From a virus: a stretch of DNA of 64,000 nucleotides. Made by a program: the position numbers and the translations under genes. Position 1 is the first letter of the stretch. Each line of letters starts with the position of its first letter. The stretch lies in IMG/VR virus record IMGVR_UViG_3300005471_000011, positions 40,108 to 104,107 of that record; one strand, 5' to 3'. The notes under the pieces were generated by a model that was given only the letters and a program-made list of their open reading frames with translations, had not been told where the DNA came from and searched no databases. Shown piece by piece: positions 7,525 to 61,504 of the stretch.

Positions 7525-10500
7525 ATGCGGACAAAGCGAAAACTCATCTTCGTGCCGGCGGCAGCGGAAGGGCCTAGTAATTTCCCGTCTGGAGCTATTG
7601 GCATTTTTCTCTTAGGCGGTGGCAGCGGCGACACGATTCCTAATCTCGTCTCTGGTATATCTGACCTGACGCTCGTCGGCTCGGAAGACCCGCCCGACGA
7701 CGCTTCGAATCCGCCAGGCAATCACGATGCCATAAGATTCGATGGCAAGTTGACGCTCAACTCCGGCATCGGACCAACCTACACGCATACCTTCCCGCTC
7801 GACTACACGAAGGGCACCTACGCGGTCAGCGAGCCATTTCCCAATACGTTCGGGAGTGGCGGGACGTGGGGAGTTAGGTTCCGCTCAGCGCCGTGGGTGT
7901 TTTACGGAGAAGGAGAGTACCTCCCGATGGCAAGTGCCGGACAGATGGGCATTTGCACTTTCCGGCCTTACGACATGGCTACCGAGAGTGAGCTGTACCC
8001 CAACATCGAGGACGGCGCGCGGTATCTTAGATTCATCCGGTATGATCCTACCCCCGGCCAGCTCTTTATGGTTGCTGGAGAGGGCAACCCGGAACTCGGC
8101 CCGAACTCAGACAGGATCGACGCGGTTGACGCCTATCCTGACTACGGCATGAGCGACATGGACGTTGACCATATCGCTATCGTCTCGTTCACGCCTGAGT
8201 ACGTAAAGCTTTACGTTGACAATGTGCTGGTTGGCACGACTACTCGTCAGACAGAGAACTACGAAACTGACTATTTAACGATCCAGCTTGGCCTTCACAA
8301 CCTGATTCATTCTTCGGAGCGATGCTACTTCGACGGCGAGTTGAACTGGCTTGCCGTCTATGACAGAACGCTGACGGGCGATGCGACAAACGAAGGGGAA
8401 AACCCGACCGGAGAAATCAACGCTCTGTATGAGGCGATGGCCGCTGAGCCGGGCACGTATCCGACTTACGAGTCCATCGTCCTCCCGCACGACACGATTC
8501 CCAATCTAGCCGTCTCGGCTGACACCAAGGCCATAAGCAGCGGGCCGTGGTCTAGTTCTGCTACTTGGGATAACGGGCTGCCGGCTGCTGGCGACACTTG
8601 GGGAATCTGCGCTGGGATCGTCGTTGACTATGACATGGGCAACGACACGACTCGCTATCGGGCGGGCGGTATCGCTCCCACAGGACGGTTGAGGTTTCCG
8701 CGAGACGCAGACAGCCAACTCTGGATTCAGCACCTGATGGAGTATTGGGACGAGGATAGCGGCAAGCTCGGCTGGCTGGACATGGGCACGGAGACGAATC
8801 CCATCCAAGCAGCATTCACCTGCGAGACCATTATTCTCAATGAACCGCTGGAAACAGGAACAGCAGCGTCTCCCGGTGTTGACCCCAAGCAGTACGGCAA
8901 CGGTTTGATTTCTCTTGGCAAGTGGACGGCGAAAGGTAAGGAACGCACGCGGCTGCTGCGACTGGGTGCCGAGCCGCAGGCGACGGATACGACGCTCACT
9001 CTCTCGGCGACTCCGACCGGCTGGGAGGACGGCGACGATCTTCTCATACCCGACAGCCGCCAGCTTGATTCCAGCACCTATCTAGGAAACTATGCCTCAC
9101 ATTGGGAGATTCGGCAGCAGGCCAGTCGCAGCGGGACGGTGGTGACGCTTGACTCCGCTTTGAGCTACGACCATCCAGGCGGTGAGTCCAACTACAGCGT
9201 CGGGCAAGGGACCGGTGAGGCGGACTTTCTGCCGCACGTCGCGAATCTGACGAGCAACGTCATTGTGCGGTCGGAGGACGGGACCGGAACTCGTGGGCAT
9301 ATCTTCGTGACGCATCGGGCACATCTTGATATCTGCGACATCCGAATCTCGCAGATGGGCCGGACGGCTAATGGGCCGGCGTCCAGCGGCACACAGGGAT
9401 TAAACAACACGATCCTCGGCAAGACTGTAACTGGGGCGACGAACGCCAGCCCAATCGTCGTCACGGTCTCCGACGACTTCACCGAACTGCGGAACCTGCT
9501 CCACAATGGTGATGAGGTCTATATCTCTGGCGTCGGTGGCAACACGGCAGCCAACGGCACGTTCACTATCGCCAACGTAACGCTGGGGCTGTTCGTATAT
9601 ACGTTCGAGCTTGTCGGAACGACTGGGAACGGCGCATACACCAGCGGTGGAACTGTCAACCACATCGGCACGAATCAGATCGGCCGGTATGCCTTCCACG
9701 CTCACCACTTGTATGGACCCGTGAACGGCGTCGGTGACTTCTCGACCGAGACCGCTGACTTGGTATTGGAGGCGACAACAGCCACTGGCGACTCTATCTT
9801 GGCGGCCACCGGATCAGCGGGACCTGACCCAATCGACCTGACAGGCGTCCAGCGTCAGGGAAGGATCGAGCGGGTAGTGATCGACGATCCGTTGCCGGCC
9901 CCGCCTTCGGCCACGCTGCCGGCGTCGAAGTGGGGCATGACAGTCCACGGTACGGGCTACCTGGAAATCAAGGACTGCGTTGTTTTGCACTATGCCGGTT
10001 CTGGAGGTGCCATTGAGGATGGCAGCGAGAAGCACAATGCATTCATCCGCGTCGCCAACTTTAGCTGCATTGGAGACGTGAGCGCCCGCGAGACGGACGG
10101 TCGCTCCGGCACCGGCATCTTTGGCATCGGCTTCAACAACTTCTTCATCGACTGCGTGTCCGCCGGCTGCGCTGGCAAGTACAGCGGCATCGTCTCTGGT
10201 TCGGGCTATCTGCTCTTTGTTCCCCCGTCTTCTACAGCCAACACGCGCCAGCCGCTGTATCCGGGTGCGGACGTCCACGACGGCACGGAGGGCGTGGATT
10301 ACGAGTTGGTCAACATCTTGGAACAGCCAATCGCTGCGTTCTATCGCAATGAGGCATACGGTGCCATCGCCGCAGCTATTGACATCTGGCACCTCGGCAG
10401 CGGTGGGTACAGCACGGTGGACGTGACGCCTACCGTGCTGCTGGAGTGCGTGAGTTGGCACGCCTGGGAAGAGGGTCTAGCGTTCCTCTACCCGACCTCA

Positions 10501-11181
10501 AATCTCATCATCGACGGCTGCGTGTATCGGGGCGACACCACCGCGGGAGAACCAACGTATCGCGGACTGATGTGGGGCGACTACTGGAATGGCGGCGACT
10601 CCCACATTCGCAACTGCGACTTCCGTGGATGCATGGATGGGATTAGCGGGAACACCAACATTCACGGTACTCTGAGGATCGAGAACGTCAATCTGCTGGT
10701 GAAGCAACACGGCATTGCGATTGATACGCCGTCAACGCCGGGCACGGGCAGCGGCTCCGGGGACCAGGAAATCCGCATCGTCAACTGCCCGGAGGTGACG
10801 TTCTACGGCTCGGTGAGCCCGCGATATGAAATCGCGATGGTTTATTCGATTGCCGCTGGCAATACCAACCTGCGTGTGTTGCAGGCGGTGTACATCGAGG
10901 ACTACCACCAAGTCACTGATGACAACTTCCGCTTGTATTACGAGGAGCAGCTCAGCACATACGTGATGCCGCAGTCCGTCGGCTCACCGACGTTCCTCAC
11001 AGCTTGCCCAGAGGCTGATTTGACGAACGCGGAAGCCTACGTGGCCTACCACCAGGACGGCACCGCCAAGAGTCCGCCGGGCAGTTTAGGTGACAGCGAA
11101 GGCTGTGCGATTGCGGGGGCGGTCGCTCCAGACGACTATACGACGCGAGCAGAGATTCTCGGTCTCATCGACGAAAGCTAG
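7525..11181 (+). CDS. large tail adhesin: LamG-like, G8-like and beta-helix domains
   Basis: This 1,218-residue protein has three recognisable parts. Residues ~60-290 resemble a concanavalin/LamG-type sandwich (HIAIVSFTPEYVKLYVDNVL ... FDGELNWLAVYDRTL). Residues ~340-450 match the G8 pattern (GPWSSSATWDNGLPAAGDTW with following beta strands). The remainder has the repetitive short-strand pattern of a right-handed beta-helix (DICDIRI, LEIKDCVVLHY, SHIRNCDFRGC, LRIENVNLL). This is the general plan of CEMIP-like and polysaccharide-binding or degrading proteins, and of many tail spikes. It opens a block of virion proteins. No catalytic residues can be assigned with confidence. The ribosome site is weak. 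Confidence 0.72.
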   Translation: MRTKRKLIFVPAAAEGPSNFPSGAIGIFLLGGGSGDTIPNLVSGISDLTLVGSEDPPDDASNPPGNHDAIRFDGKLTLNSGIGPTYTHTFPLDYTKGTYAVSEPFPNTFGSGGTWGVRFRSAPWVFYGEGEYLPMASAGQMGICTFRPYDMATESELYPNIEDGARYLRFIRYDPTPGQLFMVAGEGNPELGPNSDRIDAVDAYPDYGMSDMDVDHIAIVSFTPEYVKLYVDNVLVGTTTRQTENYETDYLTIQLGLHNLIHSSERCYFDGELNWLAVYDRTLTGDATNEGENPTGEINALYEAMAAEPGTYPTYESIVLPHDTIPNLAVSADTKAISSGPWSSSATWDNGLPAAGDTWGICAGIVVDYDMGNDTTRYRAGGIAPTGRLRFPRDADSQLWIQHLMEYWDEDSGKLGWLDMGTETNPIQAAFTCETIILNEPLETGTAASPGVDPKQYGNGLISLGKWTAKGKERTRLLRLGAEPQATDTTLTLSATPTGWEDGDDLLIPDSRQLDSSTYLGNYASHWEIRQQASRSGTVVTLDSALSYDHPGGESNYSVGQGTGEADFLPHVANLTSNVIVRSEDGTGTRGHIFVTHRAHLDICDIRISQMGRTANGPASSGTQGLNNTILGKTVTGATNASPIVVTVSDDFTELRNLLHNGDEVYISGVGGNTAANGTFTIANVTLGLFVYTFELVGTTGNGAYTSGGTVNHIGTNQIGRYAFHAHHLYGPVNGVGDFSTETADLVLEATTATGDSILAATGSAGPDPIDLTGVQRQGRIERVVIDDPLPAPPSATLPASKWGMTVHGTGYLEIKDCVVLHYAGSGGAIEDGSEKHNAFIRVANFSCIGDVSARETDGRSGTGIFGIGFNNFFIDCVSAGCAGKYSGIVSGSGYLLFVPPSSTANTRQPLYPGADVHDGTEGVDYELVNILEQPIAAFYRNEAYGAIAAAIDIWHLGSGGYSTVDVTPTVLLECVSWHAWEEGLAFLYPTSNLIIDGCVYRGDTTAGEPTYRGLMWGDYWNGGDSHIRNCDFRGCMDGISGNTNIHGTLRIENVNLLVKQHGIAIDTPSTPGTGSGSGDQEIRIVNCPEVTFYGSVSPRYEIAMVYSIAAGNTNLRVLQAVYIEDYHQVTDDNFRLYYEEQLSTYVMPQSVGSPTFLTACPEADLTNAEAYVAYHQDGTAKSPPGSLGDSEGCAIAGAVAPDDYTTRAEILGLIDES

Positions 11182-33429: not shown

Positions 33430-33710
33430 AGTGCGAAAACAACTGCCGCAAGACTTCATCTCACTGCCATTGCTGCGCGGAAGTCTCGCCGCCGCTGGAG
33501 TGCGTCCCGTGCCGGCTATGCGGGGATCGCGACGAGATGTACGCGGAGATCCCCGTGGAGGGCGACTGGCACGGGCAAGGCTTCGTCATGCGGATCGGCT
33601 GCCTCTGTCCGGCGTCGATGGAGCTTGAGAAGGACGAGACGCGAACGGAGTTTGAAATCTACGAGGAATCTATTTTGCAGTGGAACGAAATGCAGGAGGA
33701 TCGAGGGTGA
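33426..33710 (+). CDS. Cys-rich zinc-binding protein
   Basis: This 94-residue protein has at least nine cysteines, including CHCC and CRLC near the N-terminus and CLC later, then an acidic helix. It could hold two zinc ions. Overlaps on both sides place it in the same operon as the following glycosyltransferase. Confidence 0.62.
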   Translation: MKCENNCRKTSSHCHCCAEVSPPLECVPCRLCGDRDEMYAEIPVEGDWHGQGFVMRIGCLCPASMELEKDETRTEFEIYEESILQWNEMQEDRG

Positions 33711-34534
33711 ACATCCGCGAGAACCTAACCGTCGTCGTGGGCGTGGACGCCAAGACGCTGATCCAGTTCGAGCAGTCCCACAGGACATGGCGGCTGCACC
33801 ATCCGTGGCTGTTTCAAATCCCTTGGGTCGTGTTCTTCGACGGCGAAGTCGAGAACCTTAAGACCGCCATCCATGAGCGCAGGCAGTTCCCGGAAGGCAC
33901 AACGTTCGTTTCCTGGCCGCACTGCGCCTACAAGCTGGACGGGGAGACGCTGCGGAAGCCCAAGTACGAATCCCAACGGGAAAAAATGCTTTCCGGGCAC
34001 GTTTACGTTCCAGCAATGTTCGTTGAAACGGATTGGCACCTGAAGCTGGATACCGACTGCGTGGCACAAGGGCCATCTCCAAACTGGCCAGACCCGGAAT
34101 GGTTCAGACAGGACGACTTTGATCGGTTCCCAGCGTGGGTCGCGCCGAAATGGTTTTACACGAAAGGGATCAATGCTCTTGGCAGGCTAGAGGATTGGGG
34201 AGACCGCGTGCAGGCGCTGGCTCAGAAGCCGCGATTGAACATTCCATTTGATCCAAAAGCGATGCGGGTCGGGCATCCACGTATGTGTAGCTGGTGCTCT
34301 TTTTATCGAACGTCCTTTACAAAGAGGCTTGTCAATTGGCTCAGCGAAACTATGCCGCCTGGGCAATTACCAATCCCAAGTCAAGATGGCGTCGCGTGGT
34401 ACGCCGCAGCGCGCGCAGGTGAATACACTCGGATTGCTAATCAGAAATCGCATCTTTGGACCAATGTCCCGAAGCTCGGTAACTTGATCGCGCTCGTGCA
34501 GCGAGTCATGCGCGGAGAGCCGGTTGATGCTTAA
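33707..34534 (+). CDS. GT-A-like glycosyltransferase with DxD motif
   Basis: This 275-residue protein starts at GTG overlapping the preceding stop, with AGGAGG upstream. The N-terminal region has Rossmann-like strands (VVGVDAKTLIQF; IPWVVFFDGEV), and the metal/nucleotide-sugar motif WHLKLDTDCVA gives Asp115-x-Asp117. A Trp-rich C-terminal part follows (WYAAARAGEYTRIANQKSHL). The DxD after a hydrophobic strand is the classic GT-A feature. Donor and acceptor cannot be read. It is one of five such enzymes in the accessory block. Confidence 0.68.
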   Translation: MNIRENLTVVVGVDAKTLIQFEQSHRTWRLHHPWLFQIPWVVFFDGEVENLKTAIHERRQFPEGTTFVSWPHCAYKLDGETLRKPKYESQREKMLSGHVYVPAMFVETDWHLKLDTDCVAQGPSPNWPDPEWFRQDDFDRFPAWVAPKWFYTKGINALGRLEDWGDRVQALAQKPRLNIPFDPKAMRVGHPRMCSWCSFYRTSFTKRLVNWLSETMPPGQLPIPSQDGVAWYAAARAGEYTRIANQKSHLWTNVPKLGNLIALVQRVMRGEPVDA

Positions 34535-35073
34535 GACAGCCATTTCCAGGTCGCGCCGTACAGTACATCCCTTACGCAACCGACGCTGACGTTGAACACT
34601 GCTGCGATCCATTTATGACGCTTGCCGACAGCGCGAAATGCTCGAATCGCATGGACCTCTTGTTCGGTCAGGATGGCACTTCCGTGTCCTTCTCCTTTGG
34701 CAATTGTGCCGTGAATGATTTTATCATTCATGTTGCTCTTGCGGGTATCCCATCGCAAGTTGTCAATATCATTATCGTGCTCGTTCCCGTTTTCATGGCA
34801 GCCTTCCAGGCCGACCGGACATGGCCCAACAAAAACTGCAAGCATTAATTGATGCATCAAAATTTGCAATTCGCGGCCAGCCTTTCCGTCTTTCAATGTG
34901 GCCTTGAGGTAATTGCCACGACGTTGCAATTTCAATCTGCGAGGCGTTTTGTAAACCCCACCATTCCCGCCAGGTTTTTTGATTGACCAGAGTTGCCCGG
35001 ACCGCGAGAGAAAATAACCGGGCCAATCCGGGATTGGCGTCAATTCAGGAATAGCGGTAGAATCCGCAGACAT
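34531..35073 (-). CDS. HNH homing endonuclease with NUMOD4
   Basis: In this 180-residue protein, residues ~12-35 (PIPDWPGYFLSRSGQLWSI) are a NUMOD4 module. Residues ~70-115 carry the HNH-type ending CHENGNEHDNDIDNLRWDTR. The C-terminus (LTEQEVHAIRAFRA, WIAAVFNVSVGCVRDVLYG) is a helix-turn-helix DNA-binding module. This is the I-HmuI-like architecture of free-standing phage homing endonucleases. It is inserted against the direction of the neighbouring genes, overlaps the end of the preceding gene by four bases and seems to have interrupted nothing. Confidence 0.86.
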   Translation of the reverse strand: MSADSTAIPELTPIPDWPGYFLSRSGQLWSIKKPGGNGGVYKTPRRLKLQRRGNYLKATLKDGKAGRELQILMHQLMLAVFVGPCPVGLEGCHENGNEHDNDIDNLRWDTRKSNMNDKIIHGTIAKGEGHGSAILTEQEVHAIRAFRAVGKRHKWIAAVFNVSVGCVRDVLYGATWKWLS

Positions 35074-35106
35074 TCGATGTACCTCCAGTAAAGGTGCATT
35101 GGGTTC

Positions 35107-35136
35107 GGCCGTGCCGGGGCTAAATCCGGCACGGCC
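35107..35136 (+). other. perfect 11-bp inverted repeat
   Basis: GGCCGTGCCGG and CCGGCACGGCC flank an eight-base loop between the homing endonuclease and the next gene. There is no T-run on either strand. It may be an RNA stem or a protein-binding site. Confidence 0.55.
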
Positions 35137-35158
35137 CCTATTGTACAGTAGGCGGGGA

Positions 35159-35392
35159 ATGATTCAACGCATGGCCAAGAGCATCCTCAAGGATGATGAA
35201 CCCCAGCCTCGCAAGCTCAAGGATTCCGAGCGCAGCGCGCGAGGGTTGGGCTGGGAATACAAGCGACGCGGCCGGTTGCTCAAGTCCAATCCATTTCCAG
35301 CCGGCACCTTGAAGCACTCAGAATTCATCGCGGGCTGGAACGAATACACGCCGCCGGACAGCAAGACGGCGCACGACGGGGACATCGAATGA
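35159..35392 (+). CDS. ribosome modulation factor-like small protein
   Basis: This protein has about 77 residues; the start could also be the ATG 12 bases on. The C-terminal half, SARGLGWEYKRRGRLLKSNP followed by FPAGTLKHSEFIAGWNE, fits the RMF-type pattern: a helix with G-x-x-x-x-x-G, then NP(F/Y) and a closing GW motif. RMF silences ribosomes by forming 100S dimers; phage relatives of unknown role are common. The similarity is a short pattern only, so the function is tentative. Confidence 0.52.
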   Translation: MIQRMAKSILKDDEPQPRKLKDSERSARGLGWEYKRRGRLLKSNPFPAGTLKHSEFIAGWNEYTPPDSKTAHDGDIE

Positions 35393-36300
35393 ATGACGGT
35401 TGTTTGTTTTTTAACGCTGGTTCCCGCCATGCCATCCACTTGATCGTCGCACTGGCTTCGCTGCGCAAGCACTGGCAAGGTCCCGTGGCAGTCGTCACGG
35501 AGGTTGACGGACCCGGTCGGCGCGTCGCGGAAGCGTGCGCCGAGGATGGGCGGCTGGGTGCGATCCAGGTGATCCCCAGCGAGGAAGTCCAGGCTGGCGG
35601 CAGCGGCAAGGCTTATTACAGCAAGACCAAGCTACCGCGTCTGACGCCGTTCGACCGCACAATATTCCTGGACGCCGACGTGCTGGTGGTCAAACCATTC
35701 CAGGAGCTGTGGCCTGAAGAAGGCGAGGCAGTGATCACGCAATTCTCTGACTGGGTATCTACGGGCGGCAAGATGTCCCAGAGAATTAAAGGCTGGCGGG
35801 AGGTAGAGCCGCATCGCGTAGCAAGGCAGCTCGCGGAGAAGTGGCCGGCGATCAACACTGGGGTCATCGCGTGGTGCGGCGACGGCGGCGAGTGGGCACA
35901 GGACTGGACGGACACCGGTTCGCGGCGGATCAGCTTCATCGGCGATGAAATAGCGATGCAGTTAATCTTTCCGGATCATGAGTGCCGCATCGTCGCGTGC
36001 CATTTCAACGCCAGTCCTGTGTTCGATGCCTGTCCCATCCGCGAGAAGTATAAGTGGCCTTGGGACGAGGAGCACGGCGTTGCGGTGCGCAGCGAGGACG
36101 TTCGGGTTTGGCATTTTCATGGGTTCAAAGCGTGGAAGCGTCCCGCCGGTTGGAAGCTCTATCGGCAGAACTACATGGACGCACTGGACGTGAATCTAGC
36201 CGGCATCCGCGAACACCCGGTCAATGGCAAGCACTTGAATCTGCTGCCGGAGCAGGATCAGCGGATCATTCGCGGCGCTATGATGGCGGCGGTTAGTTGA
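35389..36300 (+). CDS. GT8-like glycosyltransferase
   Basis: This 303-residue protein has a GT-A fold with LIVALASLRKHWQGPVAVVT as the first beta-alpha unit, RTIFLDADVLVVKPFQELW with the DxD (Asp95-Ala-Asp97), a mid-region INTGVIAW typical of glycogenin-like GT8 enzymes, and a C-terminal VRVWHFHGFKAW where a metal-binding His is expected. It is a relative of the protein at 42369. It probably transfers a sugar from a nucleotide donor; the acceptor is unknown. Confidence 0.8.
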   Translation: MNDGCLFFNAGSRHAIHLIVALASLRKHWQGPVAVVTEVDGPGRRVAEACAEDGRLGAIQVIPSEEVQAGGSGKAYYSKTKLPRLTPFDRTIFLDADVLVVKPFQELWPEEGEAVITQFSDWVSTGGKMSQRIKGWREVEPHRVARQLAEKWPAINTGVIAWCGDGGEWAQDWTDTGSRRISFIGDEIAMQLIFPDHECRIVACHFNASPVFDACPIREKYKWPWDEEHGVAVRSEDVRVWHFHGFKAWKRPAGWKLYRQNYMDALDVNLAGIREHPVNGKHLNLLPEQDQRIIRGAMMAAVS

Positions 36301-36325
36301 CGGTTGAATGTAGCGTCTGTAAAAT
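36297..36325 (+). promoter_or_regulatory. sigma70-type promoter
   Basis: TTGACG and TAAAAT are exactly 17 bases apart. Transcription would begin near 36332, at the ATG chosen for the next gene, which suggests a leaderless or nearly leaderless message. The TTG of the -35 box also overlaps the previous stop and could serve as a coupled start. Confidence 0.72.
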
Positions 36326-36332
36326 GCTGGTC

Positions 36333-37157
36333 ATGAAAACCGTCGAAATCATCACGCATTGTTTCGCCGAGAAGATTCCCGCGTTCGCTTCACTGCTGAC
36401 GGCACAACTCAGCAGCTTGATCCTGTGGGAGCCGAGGAACTGCATGGCGGTTCTAACGATTTGCTATGCAGAAGATGACCAGCGAACAAAATGGGTTATC
36501 GAACGACTGGTCGAAATTGTGGACGGTTGCAAGGAGGATGAACCGGAACTGGCCCGTGCAATTGATACCGGCTTAGTGCCGTGCCCGCATCCTAGAGTCG
36601 ATATGAAGTTGCTGTTTGAGCTAGACCGCGCAAAACTATTTCGTCGCTCTATCGGACGCAACATGGCAGCTCGCCGTAGCCGCGCAGACATCGTGTGGTT
36701 CGCAGACTGCGACTACATCTTCGGAGAAGGCTGCCTGGACGCGCTGGCTGCCTCTGAGTTCACCGGCTTGACATATCCCCAAGAGGTCCAAATCCACCGC
36801 GCACACCACATCGGCGACGCGGAGATTGCCAGGATCAAGCCGGGCGAGCTGTTCACGCCGGACCTGTCGTTGTTTGAAACCAAGCGGGAGAAGTTCGCCA
36901 TCGGCGGGCTGCAAATCGTTCCCGGCGACGTGGCGCGGAAGTATGGCTACTGCGACGGCGGACGCTGGCAGAAGCCGGCTGATCCGGCGCAAGGATTCCA
37001 GGACACGCGAGAGGACAAAGCTTACCGCCAGGAGATGATCGAGAAGTGCGGGCCAAGCAAGGCGATCCATCTACCCAACCTTTATCGGTTCCGCCACAGT
37101 GAGTCGGCTTTTGAGGATTCCGCCAAGCGGCTGGCGCAGACCGCTGGAAAGGTCTAA
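36333..37157 (+). CDS. GT2-like glycosyltransferase
   Basis: The predicted protein has 274 residues. MKTVEIITHCFAEKIPAFAS opens like a family 2 enzyme. FRRSIGRNMAARRSRADIVW followed by FADCDYIFG is the usual approach to the DxD (Asp125-Cys-Asp127), and FAIGGLQIVPGDVARKYGY marks the acceptor side. An upstream in-frame TTG overlapping the previous stop is an alternative start, but the promoter overlaps that region. Confidence 0.75.
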   Translation: MKTVEIITHCFAEKIPAFASLLTAQLSSLILWEPRNCMAVLTICYAEDDQRTKWVIERLVEIVDGCKEDEPELARAIDTGLVPCPHPRVDMKLLFELDRAKLFRRSIGRNMAARRSRADIVWFADCDYIFGEGCLDALAASEFTGLTYPQEVQIHRAHHIGDAEIARIKPGELFTPDLSLFETKREKFAIGGLQIVPGDVARKYGYCDGGRWQKPADPAQGFQDTREDKAYRQEMIEKCGPSKAIHLPNLYRFRHSESAFEDSAKRLAQTAGKV

Positions 37158-37357: not shown

Positions 37358-37896
37358 GCCGCCTCTTCCCTGAAGTCATCCGCGACCGTGGACTAGTGCG
37401 CGAAGTGTTCATAGAAACCGGCACGGGAGGCGGCATGTCCGTGCGGCGCTGCCGCAGGCTGTTCAGCATGATCCACACGATTGAGTCCGACCTAGCGACC
37501 TACCAGAAGGCTGCACATGACCTGCGCACGTTCGGCAACGTGCGGTGCCACCACGGGCGCTCACCAGACCTGCTGCGCCGGATCATTGATCCCAAACTGC
37601 CGACGCTGTTCTACCTGGATGCGCACGCTGTGGCGCAGAACCCAGAACTGCCGGCACCCATCCAGGAATGTCCCCTGCTGGACGAGCTGCGCGCGATCTT
37701 CTCTTTCTCTTGGTCTGAGCCGCCGCCGATCATGGTGGATGACGCGGGCATGTACGGCGAGGAGTTCTGGTCTGGCAAGCGGGCGAAGGGCTATGACCGG
37801 GCGCAGTGGCCGACGCTAGCGCAGGTGCTCGACGAACTCCCGGCGGGCTACCGCGCCAGCAACCACCGGGATATTCTGATCCTGGAGCCTCAATGA
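37354..37896 (+). CDS. SAM-dependent methyltransferase-like protein
   Basis: This 180-residue protein has motif I-like FIETGTGGGMSVRRC, a following acidic strand end (MIHTIESD), then PTLFYLDAHAV where class I enzymes carry the motif IV acidic residue, and PPIMVDDAGMYG. The plan resembles class I methyltransferases of the Methyltransf_24/FkbM group in phage glycan clusters. It starts at the ATG overlapping the previous stop. The substrate is unknown. Confidence 0.65.
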   Translation: MSRLFPEVIRDRGLVREVFIETGTGGGMSVRRCRRLFSMIHTIESDLATYQKAAHDLRTFGNVRCHHGRSPDLLRRIIDPKLPTLFYLDAHAVAQNPELPAPIQECPLLDELRAIFSFSWSEPPPIMVDDAGMYGEEFWSGKRAKGYDRAQWPTLAQVLDELPAGYRASNHRDILILEPQ

Positions 37897-37934
37897 AAAA
37901 CTACACATCAACCGTTCCCGCTGACCGCACTGTC
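37893..37934 (+). pseudogene. 5' fragment of a phage gene split by a transposon
   Basis: ATG at 37893 overlaps the previous stop (ATGA) and begins MKNYTSTVPADRTV. The fragment ends at the 10-bp target duplication. Joined to the sequence after the right-hand copy at 41950 it reads through in the same frame to 42372, giving a 154-residue protein of a conserved phage type (MKNYTS..V...T..IE.ML...GA). The gene is therefore disrupted, not short. Confidence 0.9.
37925..37934 (+). repeat. left target-site duplication
   Basis: CCGCACTGTC directly abuts the left inverted repeat and is repeated without mismatch at 41940-41949. Confidence 0.92.
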
Positions 37935-37990
37935 GGCTTTGCCTAGAAAGTCGCGTTTGCCTAGTAAGTCGGCGGTCTGCCCAGAAAGTC
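37935..37990 (+). repeat. left inverted repeat with three sub-terminal motif copies
   Basis: The terminal 18 bp begin GGCTTTGCC. The motif TTTGCCTAGAAAGTC recurs as TTTGCCTAGTAAGTC and TCTGCCCAGAAAGTC at intervals of about 18-20 bp, like multiple transposase-binding sites at one end. Confidence 0.85.
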
Positions 37991-40633
37991 TTAGCGAGGC
38001 TTGCGATTTTTAGCCACTGCTTTTGGCGGCGGCATTTGTCGCTTCTGGATCTTTGGCAAGGAGCGTTTTCTTGTCTTAGCTGTTGCTTGCGGCGCTGACT
38101 CGGCCAACGGCGATGACCGCTTTGCCAGAACCTCCACGGGAATGTCGCTTTCGCTCACGCCTCCCATCGGCAACATTCTGGCGATTCCAGCGGTTAGCTC
38201 GCCAAGTTCTTCGATTGCGCTAACTTGCTGTCGCTTTAGCTCCCTAGCACGATCAAGAAGCGCAACAACCGTTTTCATCTGTGATTTTGTCTTCGGCAGA
38301 GCGACAACCATTTCAAGGAATCGTTTTTCTTTATAGCGATTGCGGCTTGTCTTCGTCGATCCGGTCGAAATTCGGTCCACTTCGTCAAGGTATTGCGGGC
38401 TGTTTAAGCAATGAACGACATACGACGACACCAACTCAGGTTCATCAACGTCCCCGCGCACGATGAAGGTTGGGAACTCGCCGGAAACATGACAGCCATC
38501 GTGCTCCGGCGGGACTACGGCGAATGAGCCACGGAAGGCAAACAGGCGATTGTAAATGACGCTGCCCGCGGAAACTTGATTCAGCTTGCTACCCTTAATC
38601 AACCGCCCTGACTTCTCCTCTCGGACGAAGGTGCCCAGCCCCCACCACTTTACCCCCAATACGCGATAGTGACGCTCCCGGTCAATCTTCTCCATGTGTT
38701 TAGTCTGAATGAACAATTCAGATAGCGCAACTGGCTGAGTTTCGAGGCCAGAGAATGCTATGCGAATATCAGCCAACGCTGATTTCAGGGCCGTGGTTAT
38801 CAGAGAAAGATGCCCCTCGACAGCGGCTACGTTGGTTGCAATTTCAGCATCGGTTGGCGGAACGACTGGCAGTCGCTTTCGGTAATACTCCGCATCCATG
38901 CGATCTTCGAGCGTGGCAACCCAGCTTTGCGGGTGCGCTTGACTCTTCTTTCCGCGCGAGAATGCCCTGTAGTCAAGTAGAACCTCTGGAAGTTGATTGC
39001 CGGCCACGGGAGCACCATTCGGCGCGTAGCCGCTGTTTTCAACCACCGCCATGAATGTTTCGCCCTGCGCCCCAGTCTCATCGACTTCGGGCTTCTTTTC
39101 CAAAAACAGAATGCTCGTCTTGGACCTCGCGTTGTAGCCTTCAAACGTAACCGCTGGCAAACTGACTATCCCCTTAATCCAGGCGTGCTGCTTGATGTAG
39201 TCGCGAACCTTAACCTTGCTGTCGTTGTTCAAAATGCCGTCGATTACGACAATGGCAACTGAGCCACCCGGCTTCACCAATCGCAAGCTACGCTCGACAG
39301 CTAGGATTACTCGATCTTGTTTGTGCTTTCTCCTGAGTTCATACCGACTCAAGATCGCGACATCGCTCTCGTATGACCCGAACGGTGGATTAGTGATGCA
39401 GAGATCGAATGTCCCCTCTTGGATTTTCCCCGGCACGTCCACTAAGCCATGATGCTTAACAATCCCAGCGCTGCCGTCCCCGTGGACGATCATGTTCATT
39501 TTGCAAGCCAGTGTCGTCCGCTCTTTCCAATCGGTTCCAAAAATGCAGCGATTTGATAGCTCGATTTTCCACTTCGATTTTTCATCCTCGCTGAACTCCT
39601 GAAGCCTGATTTTCTCGCTGACGACCTCAAAGGCATAGATTAGGAATCCGCCTGTCCCGCAAAATGGGTCGATGATCTTTTGGCCGATCTTCGGGTCAAT
39701 CGCGTCCACCATGAACTCGACTACATTACGCGGCGTGAAAAACTCTCCTAAGCCGCCAGTGAATGTGTCCCCAAGAAAATACTCGAACGCTTCGCCCTTC
39801 ACGTCGAACGCCGTCAGTGATAGGTCGTAGCCTTCAAACTGGCTTACGATGGTGCGAATTGTTCGATCATCTAGGGCGATATTGCTGTCAGGATCGAAGA
39901 GGTCGGAGAATTGCGGGTCTTCCTTGGTTTCTTGCCAAATCTGCTTGACGACGTTGACGCCCAGCTTCGCGAGCGTGTCATCGAATACCTTTGTCCGAAA
40001 CCGATTGGCGTCCCCCGGATGCGTTCGCTCTTCGTGCATTTTGCAGAAGAGCACCTTCGACATTTCGTCAAATGCCTTGGTGGGGTCATCGCCTTGGTTA
40101 TTCCGTATCTCGTTGTGGCAGGCGCGCAAGATCGACTTGAACGACTGCACGTCGTCGATGATGAAGAGTTCGTGTTTCGCCTCCAGCCGTAGCGATTCCT
40201 GCACTTCGGCGCTGACGACGAACTTTACAAAATCATCTGAGAGATCTCGCCTGTGCGGTAGATCTGCAAGCCGGTTTTTGCTAAGCGACTGATACACCCG
40301 CGTCTGGAGGCCGTTGGTAACGACCACTAGCGGCGCGATTCGCGGCAGCAGCCTTGCGTAAGAAATCGCCTGCTCAGTATCCCGGCGAATTAACGGTTCC
40401 CCTGGAGGCTTGGTTTCGCAAACGATTAGCGGCGTGGTCTTGGCGGTCGTCGTATAGACCACCGCATCGGCAAAAATCGTCTTTGTTTTGCGCCCCTCTT
40501 GGATCTCGATTGGCTTGTTAAAATCAATACAGTTCTGCTTGTATCCACGCAACCCCAGATAGGGAACAAGGAACTTGACCTTCACGTCCTCCTCGGACAA
40601 AAGATCATCGGGGGCCGGCAGAGAATAGGACAT
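37991..40633 (-). CDS. single-chain restriction-modification enzyme (nuclease + N6-adenine methylase + specificity)
   Basis: This 880-residue protein starts at the ATG with GAGGG upstream, overlapping the zinc-ribbon stop. Residues ~14-110 are an HsdR_N-like PD-(D/E)xK nuclease: Asp56 in IFADAVVY, Glu73-x-Lys75 in VCETK. Residues ~285-540 are an HsdM-type methyltransferase: FFTPRNVVEFM, motif I DPFCGTGGF (322-330) and motif IV NPPF (415-418). From ~640 a target-recognition half like HsdS follows (RVLGVKWWGLGTF, AGSVIYNRLFAFRGSF), and a basic tail ends it. No helicase motor is seen. This is a type IIG-like layout, expected to cut DNA and methylate adenine at one site. Confidence 0.86.
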   Translation of the reverse strand: MSYSLPAPDDLLSEEDVKVKFLVPYLGLRGYKQNCIDFNKPIEIQEGRKTKTIFADAVVYTTTAKTTPLIVCETKPPGEPLIRRDTEQAISYARLLPRIAPLVVVTNGLQTRVYQSLSKNRLADLPHRRDLSDDFVKFVVSAEVQESLRLEAKHELFIIDDVQSFKSILRACHNEIRNNQGDDPTKAFDEMSKVLFCKMHEERTHPGDANRFRTKVFDDTLAKLGVNVVKQIWQETKEDPQFSDLFDPDSNIALDDRTIRTIVSQFEGYDLSLTAFDVKGEAFEYFLGDTFTGGLGEFFTPRNVVEFMVDAIDPKIGQKIIDPFCGTGGFLIYAFEVVSEKIRLQEFSEDEKSKWKIELSNRCIFGTDWKERTTLACKMNMIVHGDGSAGIVKHHGLVDVPGKIQEGTFDLCITNPPFGSYESDVAILSRYELRRKHKQDRVILAVERSLRLVKPGGSVAIVVIDGILNNDSKVKVRDYIKQHAWIKGIVSLPAVTFEGYNARSKTSILFLEKKPEVDETGAQGETFMAVVENSGYAPNGAPVAGNQLPEVLLDYRAFSRGKKSQAHPQSWVATLEDRMDAEYYRKRLPVVPPTDAEIATNVAAVEGHLSLITTALKSALADIRIAFSGLETQPVALSELFIQTKHMEKIDRERHYRVLGVKWWGLGTFVREEKSGRLIKGSKLNQVSAGSVIYNRLFAFRGSFAVVPPEHDGCHVSGEFPTFIVRGDVDEPELVSSYVVHCLNSPQYLDEVDRISTGSTKTSRNRYKEKRFLEMVVALPKTKSQMKTVVALLDRARELKRQQVSAIEELGELTAGIARMLPMGGVSESDIPVEVLAKRSSPLAESAPQATAKTRKRSLPKIQKRQMPPPKAVAKNRKPR

Positions 40634-40791
40634 TATGCCCTCTTTGTCCCGGTAGGTTTCTTCGGCTTGTCCCAATAGGGGCTTTTGCAGTGCGGGCACA
40701 CTCGCGGATGTTCGTCCGGTTTCCGCGGAACCCATTCGTGAGAACATCGCTCACAACGATACCCCGGCACGGTGAGTTTGATTTTCGCCAT
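40633..40791 (-). CDS. zinc-ribbon protein upstream of the RM gene
   Basis: This 52-residue protein starts MAKIKLTVPGYRCERC and contains CERC, then CPHC 16 residues later, the spacing of a zinc ribbon, with a conserved-looking SPYWDKP after it. Its stop overlaps the RM start (TAATG), so the two are translated together. Small zinc ribbons in this position may regulate or tether the enzyme. It is too short to appear in routine gene calls. Confidence 0.72.
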   Translation of the reverse strand: MAKIKLTVPGYRCERCSHEWVPRKPDEHPRVCPHCKSPYWDKPKKPTGTKRA

Positions 40792-40845
40792 AGCCGGTAT
40801 CTTACCAGATAATCAGTTATTTCAAAGGCAAATACTAGCCGGGGA

Positions 40846-40874
40846 TTGACGAATACTTACTTAGATAGTATATT
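40846..40874 (+). promoter_or_regulatory. promoter of the transposase gene
   Basis: TTGACG and TATATT are separated by 17 bases in the AT-rich gap between the divergent zinc-ribbon and transposase genes. The start codon lies ~40 bases downstream with TGGAGT before it. Confidence 0.78.
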
Positions 40875-40913
40875 ACTACGAAAGTAAGACACAGACTGAC
40901 TGGAGTTACTGCC

Positions 40914-41921
40914 ATGAACGACCGCGAGCAACGTGGGTTGACAATCGCCGCACTGACGAAGTTGGTCCGCAAGGGCGGTATTTGGGTTGTGCCTTCACAA
41001 TCTGGACCAGCGAAATATACCGTTTGCCCAGATCCGATCAATCCCCACTGCACGTGCGCGGACCACGAAACCCGCGGCTGTAAGTGTAAACACATTTTCG
41101 CCGTCGAATTCGCGATGAAGCGCGAAGAGGCGGCAGACGGCACGGTGACGGAAACGCGGTCGATTACCCTGACTGAGAAGCGGACGACCTACACTCAGGA
41201 TTGGCCCGCGTACAATGCCGCCCAAACCACTGAGAAGGGCACGTTCCAGGTAATGCTCCGCGACTTGTGCAATGGAATACAGGAACCGCAGCAGGGGATG
41301 GGACGCCCTCGCATCCTGCTCCGAGATGCCCTCTTCGCAGCTTGCTTCAAGGTCTATTCCACGTTCTCAGGCCGGCGGTTTATGACCGACCTGAAAGAGG
41401 CGCACGGGGAAGGCCACCTAACCCGCTGCCCGTCGTACAATTCGATCTTCGCTGTTTTTGAATCGCCAGAGACCGATGGCGTACAGCTTCCCAAGCTGCT
41501 CGGAACGACGGCCCAGCGATTCACGGTCAAGGAGGTTTCTGCCGACTTAGCTTACTCGACTAACACGAACCTAGCGGAAGTGGACGCGCTCGGCGCGTCG
41601 CCAATGATCCCATTCAAGCGGAACGCGGTCGCCACATCCGGCGGCTTGTGGTCCAAGATGTTTCACTACTTTCAATTTCACCGCCAAGAATTTCTGAGCC
41701 GCTATCACCTGCGGTCGAATGTCGAGAGCACATTCTCTATGATCAAGAGGAAGTTCGGCGATTCGCTGCGGAGCAAGACTGACGTAGCGATGAAGAATGA
41801 AACGCTGGCCAAGCTGGTTTGCCACAACATTTGCTGCGTCATTCAGGAAATGCACGAATCGGGCGTCGATCCGACTTTCTGGGCAGATTCGGCAGTTGCC
41901 CAGAAAGGAGCCAACAACTAG
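40914..41921 (+). CDS. SWIM-finger DDE transposase, probably catalytically incomplete
   Basis: In this 335-residue protein the N-terminus has a SWIM zinc finger (CTCADHETRGCKCKH, Cys46, Cys48, Cys58, His60). The C-terminal DDE part has FTVKEVSADLAYST (Asp211), PMIPFKRN and LRSNVESTFSMIKRKFGDS (Glu271), matching IS4-type transposases. The segment that should carry the first catalytic Asp (usually a DSTGF-like motif and ~70 residues) is absent between IFAVFESPE and TDGVQLPKLLG. The reading frame is intact, so this looks like an in-frame internal deletion. Confidence 0.85.
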   Translation: MNDREQRGLTIAALTKLVRKGGIWVVPSQSGPAKYTVCPDPINPHCTCADHETRGCKCKHIFAVEFAMKREEAADGTVTETRSITLTEKRTTYTQDWPAYNAAQTTEKGTFQVMLRDLCNGIQEPQQGMGRPRILLRDALFAACFKVYSTFSGRRFMTDLKEAHGEGHLTRCPSYNSIFAVFESPETDGVQLPKLLGTTAQRFTVKEVSADLAYSTNTNLAEVDALGASPMIPFKRNAVATSGGLWSKMFHYFQFHRQEFLSRYHLRSNVESTFSMIKRKFGDSLRSKTDVAMKNETLAKLVCHNICCVIQEMHESGVDPTFWADSAVAQKGANN

Positions 41922-41939
41922 GACTTATTGGGCAAAGCC
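41922..41939 (-). repeat. right inverted repeat of the transposon
   Basis: On the reverse strand it reads GGCTTTGCCCAATAAGTC and matches the left end at 14 of 18 positions, with the first nine identical. Confidence 0.9.
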
Positions 41940-41949
41940 CCGCACTGTC
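41940..41949 (+). repeat. right target-site duplication
   Basis: This is a second exact copy of CCGCACTGTC, directly after the right inverted repeat. Confidence 0.92.
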
Positions 41950-42372
41950 TCAGAAATCGAAAGCATGCTCGTTCGCGCTGGTGCCAGAAGTATCTCCAAG
42001 GAATACGCCAACGGCTCAGTCCAGGCGCTTAACTTTGTGATCATGTGTCCTGAGACGCAGGCACCACTTGGCGTGCGTTTGCCGGCTGACCAGGAAGCGG
42101 TTTTTCAAGTATTGAAAAAGGCGCGCAGCCCTCGCGCTCGCTGGCATCGCGGGTGGGAAGATAAAGTCCGCGAGCAAGCCAAGCGAACCGCCTGGAGGCT
42201 GATGTTCGACTGGGTAGCCGTGCAGCTCTCGCTGATAGAGATGAAGCAAGCGGAGCTAATGCAGGTGTTCTTGCCGTATTTGTGGGCTGGCAAGACGACG
42301 TTTTACGAGTCGATCAAGCAAAACAAATTTGCTGCGCTGAGCTATGAGGGCGAAAGGCCGAGCGAGCAATGA
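41950..42372 (+). pseudogene. 3' fragment of the transposon-split phage gene
   Basis: The sequence continues the frame that starts at 37893: SEIESMLVRAGARSISKEYA, then YETQAPLGV-like strands and helices to KQNKFAALSYEG. It encodes ~140 residues. The natural start is now 4 kb away behind the transposon, so it is either silent or made from an internal start or read-through from the transposase. Its stop overlaps the start of the next glycosyltransferase gene (ATGA). Confidence 0.88.
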
Positions 42373-43187
42373 ACGCACGAGGCGTCCTGTATTACAACAT
42401 CGGCGACCGCTACGCCGTGCCGCTGGCGGTGTCCCTGATGACGCTGCGCGACTGGTACGCGGGTCCGGTGGCAATCGTCACGGACATGGCTGGTATCCCG
42501 TGGATTCGCAAGATGCTCAAGATTCCCGGCTTGCTGCCACTGGATATCATCCCCATGCTGCCGGAAAGCTCCTCCGAGCAGTGGCGCTATCTTGCCAAGC
42601 TCGAACTGCCGGAGCTATCACCGTTCGCCTCCACGGTCATGCTGGACGCGGACACGCTGGTCGTCGGGTCCATCGAGGAGTTGTGGCCCGACATGAAATC
42701 CGGGGAAGTGGTCCTGACAAATCGTTCCAACGGCGCCACGGCTCACGTCAAGATGCGGCTGCGATGCCAGCAGTGGATTGATATCGCTCCGCTGCGCGCG
42801 AGGCGCGTGCGTTCCCAGCGGTTCAAGGTTGCCGCGATCAACACGGGCATCATGGCTTGGTCGCGCAACAGCTCGCCTTTCGTGCGCGAATGGTACCGGC
42901 TGGCGAGGCTCCGTCCGATCCACAGTTGCGACGAGATGGCGGCACAGCTCACCTATCCCGACTTCCCGCACAGGATTCTGGATTCCCGCTACAATGCCAA
43001 CGTGACCTACGACCGGGAGGACGTGCGAATCTGGCACGGGCCGCGGTCACAGTTCTGGAAGGCAGGCGGGCGCGGCAGGGCGCTGTGGACGCCTTATTTC
43101 CGGCGAGAACTGCCATTGCTGCGAGAGCTGCTGCCAACGGCGGCGTGGCTTGGTGGCTGGCTGGAAAGGGAAACAGGGAAAGCATGA
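42369..43187 (+). CDS. GT8-like glycosyltransferase
   Basis: In this 272-residue protein, VPLAVSLMTLRDWYAGPVAI forms the first Rossmann unit, STVMLDADTLVVGSIEELW carries the DxD (Asp93-Ala-Asp95), FKVAAINTGIMAWSRN is the glycogenin-like middle, and VRIWHGPRSQFW supplies the late His. It is a clear paralogue of the protein at 35389. It is coupled to the split gene upstream and to an FkbM-type methyltransferase downstream. Confidence 0.8.
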   Translation: MNARGVLYYNIGDRYAVPLAVSLMTLRDWYAGPVAIVTDMAGIPWIRKMLKIPGLLPLDIIPMLPESSSEQWRYLAKLELPELSPFASTVMLDADTLVVGSIEELWPDMKSGEVVLTNRSNGATAHVKMRLRCQQWIDIAPLRARRVRSQRFKVAAINTGIMAWSRNSSPFVREWYRLARLRPIHSCDEMAAQLTYPDFPHRILDSRYNANVTYDREDVRIWHGPRSQFWKAGGRGRALWTPYFRRELPLLRELLPTAAWLGGWLERETGKA

Positions 43188-60441: not shown

Positions 60442-60653
60442 TGGGACTGGGAAACATTACCCGCGAGCATACGGCATGGTGCTTTCTCTGCGAGCACTGG
60501 GAGCAGGAAGGTGAGCATAGCAAGTCGCGTTTCATCAAATGGCTGAAACGCGGAGGCTGGAAGCTAGTTGCCGGTAAATGGGTTTGCCCGAAGTGCGTAG
60601 CAAGACATGGCCGCTATCGCCTAGCGGACCTTGTTAATTCGGAGGGTAAATGA
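60441..60653 (+). CDS. small zinc-ribbon protein
   Basis: In this 70-residue protein CFLC and CPKC, about 35 residues apart, can hold one zinc; the rest is basic (SRFIKWLKRGGWKLVAGKW). It is coupled to both neighbours. Confidence 0.62.
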   Translation: MGLGNITREHTAWCFLCEHWEQEGEHSKSRFIKWLKRGGWKLVAGKWVCPKCVARHGRYRLADLVNSEGK

Positions 60654-61504
60654 CCGAGGACATGCAGATCACGGCGCTGGCACCCTGGAAGGGATCGAAT
60701 CGGATGCTGGGTCCAGAGGTCGGCAAGGCGCTCAAGGGCTGCGAGTGGTGCGGCATTCCGTTCGCTGGCGGCATGGCGGAGGTTCCGCATATCCAGGCGA
60801 GGACGATCTTGGTCAATGACAAGCATGAGCACGTAATCAATCTTGCGGCCTGCGCGGCGCATCGAGCCTACGGTCCAAAGCTCTACCGATTCCTACGCCG
60901 GTTTGTATTTTGCCAACAGGCGCTCGATCAAGCGAGACGGATATGCGTTAAGGCCGAAAATGAAAACTGGGCTGCCCTTGGACACGCCGAGCGCGATTAT
61001 GACTGGGCTGCCGCTTACTTTGTATCCTGCTGGATGGGTCGCAGCGGGACCGCTGGCACGGACAGCGAGTTCAAGGGCAACCTATCGCTGCGATGGAACG
61101 CTGGCGGCGGGGACTCGGCGCTGCGCTACCACCACGCCGTGCTCGGCATCCCGGCGTGGCGCAGGACGCTGCGGCGGTGTAACTTCAGCACGCTAGATTT
61201 CCGCGAGTTCCTGCGCAACTGCCTGAAGCACGATCTGCCAAAGCATGGCATCTACAGCGACAGTCCGTTTCCTGACGCTGGCGACGACTACAAGCACAAG
61301 TTCACTGGCAAAGACCAGCGCGACCTCGCGGAGCTGCTTGGCAGCTTCAAGCAGGCGAAGGTCGTCATTCGGTTCTACGATCACCCGCTGATCCGGAAGC
61401 TGTGCGCCCGCCATCCAGGAACTTCCAAATCCAGCGATCTTCTGGATACCCAGGCGAACAAGAAGGCACCGGAAGTCTTGCTGTTTTCAAGGAGCCAACC
61501 ATGA
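60650..61504 (+). CDS. D12-class DNA adenine methyltransferase with altered catalytic motif
   Basis: This 284-residue protein has ALAPWKGSNRMLGPEVGKAL (motif X), CGIPFAGGMAEVPHI (motif I, FxGG), LVNDKHEHVINLAACAA, IYSDSPFPDAGDDYKHKF where the family has DPPY, and VVIRFYDHPLIRKLC late. The order X-I-IV is that of Dam-type D12 enzymes. Motif IV reads Asp204-Ser-Pro-Phe207, so the first Pro is replaced by Ser. The enzyme may still methylate adenine, have a different base preference or be inactive. Confidence 0.72.
   Translation: MTEDMQITALAPWKGSNRMLGPEVGKALKGCEWCGIPFAGGMAEVPHIQARTILVNDKHEHVINLAACAAHRAYGPKLYRFLRRFVFCQQALDQARRICVKAENENWAALGHAERDYDWAAAYFVSCWMGRSGTAGTDSEFKGNLSLRWNAGGGDSALRYHHAVLGIPAWRRTLRRCNFSTLDFREFLRNCLKHDLPKHGIYSDSPFPDAGDDYKHKFTGKDQRDLAELLGSFKQAKVVIRFYDHPLIRKLCARHPGTSKSSDLLDTQANKKAPEVLLFSRSQP

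Follow-up and report, generated by a model that had tools for sequence, protein, structure and literature searches.

A cargo-carrying transposon with a SWIM-DDE transposase and a single-chain restriction-modification gene in a split phage gene

Restriction-modification (RM) genes can travel together with transposable elements, either linked to an insertion sequence (IS) or between two IS copies in a composite transposon, and an RM gene such as PaeR7I punishes the loss of its carrier (PMC3031569). Tn7-like transposons also carry variable cargo, with RM among the commonest defense cargo, and are moved by a multi-protein machine (PMC8649781). The IS4 family possesses a single-gene DDE transposase with a Y(2)R(3)E(6)K signature and D(60~110)D(100~150)E spacing (De Palmenaer 2008, PMC2266710); its target duplication measures ~10 bp, and its member IS231 has passenger genes between the left end and the transposase (PMC2266710). 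Here we describe a transposon of 4005 bp, with limits known to the base, at positions 37935-41939 of a viral DNA stretch of 64,000 nucleotides (the window; positions 40,108 to 104,107 of the IMG/VR record IMGVR_UViG_3300005471_000011). As in the IS-linked and composite systems, an RM gene and a transposable element are joined, but here the RM gene resides within one unit that possesses a single transposase and single ends, and not between two IS copies. Unlike the Tn7-like transposons, the element and its relatives rely on one transposase gene, have no known site targeting and span 2-7 kb. We read the element as a cargo-carrying DDE transposon of a so far unnamed SWIM-DDE family that inserted into a phage gene and whose transposase has since been damaged, and we place the probability of this reading as a whole at about 0.85.

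Element ends and the split phage gene

The left terminal inverted repeat (GGCTTTGCCTAGAAAGTC; 37935-37952, plus strand) and its right counterpart (GACTTATTGGGCAAAGCC; 41922-41939, minus strand) agree at 15 of 18 positions when compared as GGCTTTGCCTAGAAAGTC from 37935 and GGCTTTGCCCAATAAGTC from 41939, and they belong to the RGCTTTG type of ends present in 43 delimited elements. They are flanked by identical copies of the 10-bp target-site duplication CCGCACTGTC at 37925-37934 and 41940-41949; the chance expectation for such pairs of ends and duplication in the 4.5 kb is ~3e-6. An earlier note on this DNA, prepared without database searches, had delimited the element to the base by precisely these inverted ends and had regarded the flanking 10-mers as a true duplication, and both claims stand. 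The element is present as a single copy in the record, and its guanine-plus-cytosine content is 0.53 compared with ~0.60 in the surroundings.

The transposon interrupts a phage gene exactly behind codon 14; the first 14 codons occupy 37893-37934 and the remainder of the gene 41950-42372, both on the plus strand. Removal of the element together with one copy of the duplication yields an intact open reading frame (ORF) of 154 residues that starts with MKNYTSTVPADRTVSEIE, and an uninterrupted homologue of this joined ORF in another viral contig (L024) aligns with it end to end from the first residue at 49% identity. A relative thus provides the empty site that the earlier note had suggested looking for in related phages. 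Since the duplication is perfect, a functional transposase must have been at work when the element inserted, be it the element's own copy before its deletion or another one acting in trans. Insertion itself would have involved cuts staggered by about 10 bp.

Further copies of the terminal motif, overlooked in the earlier note, occur near both ends. On the left, three spaced copies (37940-37952, 37958-37970 and 37978-37990, plus strand; span 37940-37990) form a triplet that is probably a transposase-binding array. Near the right end, GACTTTCTGGGCA (41873-41885) and TGCCCAGAAAG (41897-41907) lie in the opposite orientation on the minus strand (41873-41907), inside the 3' end of the transposase gene. 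Element-specific arrays of this kind are likewise found across the family: the terminal hexamer recurs a mean of 2.2 times in the 119 bp that follow on both sides vs 0.10 for the hexamers of other elements, and there are usually two further copies per end, 18-20 bp apart. The word repeated at the ends (TG, four variable bases and an A-rich tail) appears about three times per end, for instance in L008, L010, L012 and L015; it is common to both ends of one element and different between elements. We infer that these repeats are putative transposase-binding arrays with element-specific words, which the transposases would probably recognize near both ends. When the end sequence alone was searched in viral contigs, 40 matches were recovered, none of which paired with a duplication.

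A damaged transposase and its family

The transposase (335 residues; 40914-41921, plus strand) combines an N-terminal SWIM-like C-x-C / C-x-C-x-H zinc motif with a DDE_Tnp_1 domain. In the alignment with intact relatives of about 400-440 residues, exactly 76 residues are missing in frame, and these include the first catalytic Asp, which is kept in 17/17 aligned relatives and sits 73-78 residues ahead of the second Asp in all of them. The Pfam DDE_Tnp_1 match does not begin before profile position 61, and a comparison with the family profile gives two separate matches, 5-186 and 259-406. The window copy lacks a complete DDE triad and is a defective family member, a loss that had escaped the earlier note. 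Since the first catalytic Asp is gone, the element is almost certainly stuck unless it is helped in trans. The idea put forward in the earlier note, that an RM gene is moving on this element, consequently applies to the past and not to the present. The predicted fold of an intact relative (predicted local distance difference test, pLDDT, 79) yielded a weak match, with low template-modeling scores, to the ISCth4 and Tn5 transposases; this supports an RNase-H-like DDE core in the intact family member, to which the SWIM-type zinc finger would be joined at the N-terminus. A PDB sequence search with the transposase profile gave no match.

The affiliation of this transposase is not straightforward. 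The earlier note had called the element IS4-like, and part of this description is correct: YHLRSNVESTFSMIK in the window conforms to the YREK signature, which most of the aligned relatives share, and the duplication of 10 bp in the window, 9-10 bp in the 43 delimited elements, agrees with that of IS4. The spacing of the catalytic residues does not, as intact relatives display D(72-77)D(59-61)E and their D-to-E distance consequently falls short of the 100-150 residues of IS4; moreover, the ends read RGCTTTG here vs CA/CT in IS4, and the window family adds the SWIM-type zinc motif and RM cargo. The best curated NCBIfam model is NF033579 IS5_2, whose cut-off of 140 bits is reached neither by the window protein (64.7 bits) nor by its relative L006 (99.2 bits), and the best family member against this model (E 5.7e-41) may lie near the cut-off. 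The short D-D-E spacing is shared with the IS5 family, which differs from the window family in that the latter has the SWIM zinc finger and systematic cargo. The IS5 signature has an arginine where the window family has a lysine. Because the IS4 spacing fails and the IS5_2 scores of the window protein and L006 remain under the cut-off, we file the family under no named family. On sequence grounds, the SWIM-zinc-finger and DDE transposases with RGCTTTG ends are one family, so far unnamed; we found no description of it in the literature searched, and it is in none of the libraries searched.

A scripted search that required RGCTTTG ends and a duplication of 9-10 bp yielded 43 non-redundant elements with defined limits. 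The duplication is exact in 42 of them (38 of 9 bp, four of 10 bp) and has a mismatch in one. They range from 2015 to 7105 bp (median 4408), none of the 43 is a bare transposase gene, and no target-site motif stands out among them. The window element shares the family transposase, the ends, the duplication and the presence of cargo. Relatives of the transposase occur in IMG/VR contigs, in Aenigmatarchaeota, Woesearchaeota and Micrarchaeota (DPANN), in other archaea and in a few bacterial assemblies. At E<=1e-60, 21 of 156 genomes of the Aenigmatarchaeota phylum and 1 of 387 genomes of the Verrucomicrobia phylum contain them. A planctomycete connection, which the earlier note had proposed to look for, is not borne out, as there were no relatives at this threshold in 294 genomes from the phylum of the Phycisphaerales assembly, and this assembly itself has a decayed fragment only (L023). 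None were detected in 72,556 plasmids (PLSDB) or 50,697 phages (INPHARED). Three different family members (L027, L028 and L058) reside in one viral contig of 123 kb, IMGVR_UViG_3300037083_000054.

Restriction-modification genes and other cargo

The passenger of the window element is a predicted RM protein of 880 residues (37991-40633, minus strand) that would function without an ATP-dependent motor. It matches Pfam HSDR_N_2 (4.5e-9) and N6_Mtase (5.3e-38) as well as PADLOC Specificity_I (1.2e-16), and its PDB relatives include RM.BsaXI. The N-terminal part is an HSDR_N_2-type PD-(D/E)XK nuclease domain (D56, ETK75), followed by a gamma-type N6-adenine methylase with the motifs DPFCGTGG and NPPF, and by a C-terminal half HsdS specificity domain; we saw no sign of a helicase motor in the 880 residues. 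The chain therefore has the predicted composition of a Type IIG-like restriction-modification-specificity (R-M-S) enzyme. It resembles the Type IIG/IIB fusions such as RM.BsaXI (PDB 8w0p) in uniting a nuclease and a gamma-class N6A methylase, and differs from RM.BsaXI in its HSDR_N_2-type nuclease and its fused half specificity domain; sequence similarity between the two is confined to the methylase. A structure prediction built from 6 sequences (pLDDT 60) was too poor and was not used.

The start of the RM protein is at 40633, whereas that of the longest ORF is at 40747. A zinc-ribbon protein of 52 residues, recognized in the translation and with weak Zn-ribbon matches below the cut-offs, is encoded upstream (40633-40791, minus strand), and the end of its ORF overlaps the RM start codon by 1 nt (TAATG), so that the two genes are probably translationally coupled. 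The cargo is accordingly the nuclease-methylase-specificity protein plus zinc ribbon that the earlier note had recognized. We considered the zinc ribbon as a conserved partner of the RM protein and rejected this idea: its relatives in seven viral contigs had no RM, methyltransferase or nuclease gene adjacent among the inspected ORFs, and it is probably a common small phage protein. A copy of the same genes without these ends in a related phage, which the earlier note had considered incompatible with its proposal, was not found; an RM protein of 48% identity stands alone, without a transposon, among the head genes of the unrelated phage L005. More distant relatives occur in plasmids and in phages, among them single-chain, transposon-free representatives in mycobacteriophages. 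Relatives at E<=1e-60 were absent from 240 genomes of the Verrucomicrobia phylum in a search run without a positive control.

Judged by sequence comparison, DNA methyltransferases are carried by 18 of the 43 duplication-bearing elements and by 19 of all 50 elements defined by their ends. They represent four chemical classes and are mostly of the RM type. Among 109 cargo proteins, Pfam identified N6_Mtase in 11, along with Eco57I, N6_N4, D12 and C5 methylases, HSDR_N nucleases, helix-turn-helix proteins and IrrE-type peptidases, and PADLOC agrees. Methyltransferase and RM genes are the commonest identified kind among exchangeable passengers placed between the left end and the transposase, and sometimes to the right of the latter. 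Methyltransferase ORFs account for 19 of 209 inside elements vs 4 of 635 in the flanks of the same contigs (p=5e-9); the seven seeds used in this comparison came from inside elements, and without them the enrichment persists (p=2e-5). An independent count of NPPY-like motifs gave 14/82 inside and 1/260 in the flanks. The methyltransferase label changes at least 11 times on the transposase tree, and L030, which has the closest transposase to that of the window, has other cargo; cargo is hence exchanged between elements and, judged from this tree, its turnover is fast.

Several other cargo genes deserve mention. The viral element L055 carries a distant one-chain RM protein of its own (871 residues) with a ribbon-helix-helix-like partner. 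In an archaeal element, a Vsr-like endonuclease and then a C5 methylase are found in one cargo protein adjoining a UvrD-like helicase (L123:6726-8258 and 8218-10968), and related P63C-domain-like proteins are present in two different viral elements (L035:6695-7819 and L058:6613-7677). Winged-helix-looking accessory ORFs recur near the transposase (L028, L030, L040, L042, L047, L048, L111, L113, L125 and L129) and may be transposition regulators.

Alternative readings and biological meaning

Our reading would not hold in its nested form if the contig were a chromosomal or plasmid fragment rather than a phage. Many of its proteins are without any match, the record may be incomplete, and two further DNA-methyltransferase-like PHROG matches are located at 43977-44486 and 60650-61501 of the window. 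Nevertheless, one 104-kb record harbors a terminase large subunit, a tape-measure protein, a head-tail adaptor, a DnaB helicase and a replication initiator, which identifies it as a tailed phage, and a relative of the interrupted gene is found in another viral contig; a non-phage origin is highly improbable. Other points do weigh against our interpretation. The contig is a metagenome assembly, and the deletion in the transposase could be an assembly error; the reading frame nevertheless stays open. Seven of the 50 ends-defined elements have no duplication, about a dozen more family loci yielded no ends, some of the family's viral contigs may be cellular DNA classified wrongly, and a few bacterial assemblies may include contaminant contigs. 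As to the neighborhood, glycosyltransferase- and methyltransferase-looking genes run around the insertion site (33680-37157 and 42369-43187), and an HNH homing endonuclease-like ORF on the minus strand (34531-35073), a possible second selfish gene, lies a few kb from the transposon.

What the RM gene does for its carriers can be viewed in different ways. Passengers might have been acquired by chance; RM genes would then be frequent simply owing to their abundance among mobile genes, and the family would have no particular link to RM or defense. Most delimited elements have no recognized methyltransferase, their cargo also comprises helix-turn-helix proteins, AAA ATPases, membrane proteins and unknowns, and Tn7-like transposons too have mixed cargo with RM as the commonest defense type (PMC8649781). 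The strong enrichment over the flanking DNA of the same contigs and the repeated, independent gain of four methyltransferase classes argue against such indifference, which we regard as doubtful. It is unlikely that the gene now serves the phage by excluding rival phages or degrading foreign DNA, with selection on the phage maintaining it. The RM frame and its catalytic motifs are intact while the transposase is broken, and transposon-free single-chain relatives exist in other phages, e.g., L005 and mycobacteriophages. However, the insertion disrupts a phage gene, the intact frame may merely reflect a recent event, and the 104-kb record showed no tyrosine integrase, so that prolonged persistence in a host is not apparent. 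We favor the cargo-carrying transposon with a damaged transposase. A 76-codon in-frame deletion, later than the insertion, would have removed part of the catalytic core, so that what is left is an RM module fixed in the phage, barring help in trans from an intact transposase. Whatever value the insert still has, if it has any, resides in the RM gene, whose frame is whole while the transposase is broken. The earlier note had named the arming of the phage against rivals and the addiction of the host as possible roles, and both may apply. As RM genes can punish the loss of their carrier (PaeR7I, PMC3031569), this one may hold the element in place: its loss would leave unmethylated DNA to be cut, and the module may also shield its carrier from competing DNA.

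More broadly, we tentatively propose, as a serious possibility short of a favored view, that this undescribed family, present in viruses, bacteria and DPANN archaea, works as a shuttle dedicated to RM and similar addictive genes, with lineage-specific end words that prevent cross-mobilization and with cargo that is swapped. RM genes have long been suspected to be selfish movers, and their vehicles have rarely been caught with both ends. The family provides small vehicles, defined to the base, that have taken up RM genes repeatedly and independently in viruses and tiny archaea, and through it the passage of RM genes between domains and into phages can be traced directly. Its element-specific repeat arrays offer, at the same time, a simple system for the co-evolution of transposases and their ends.

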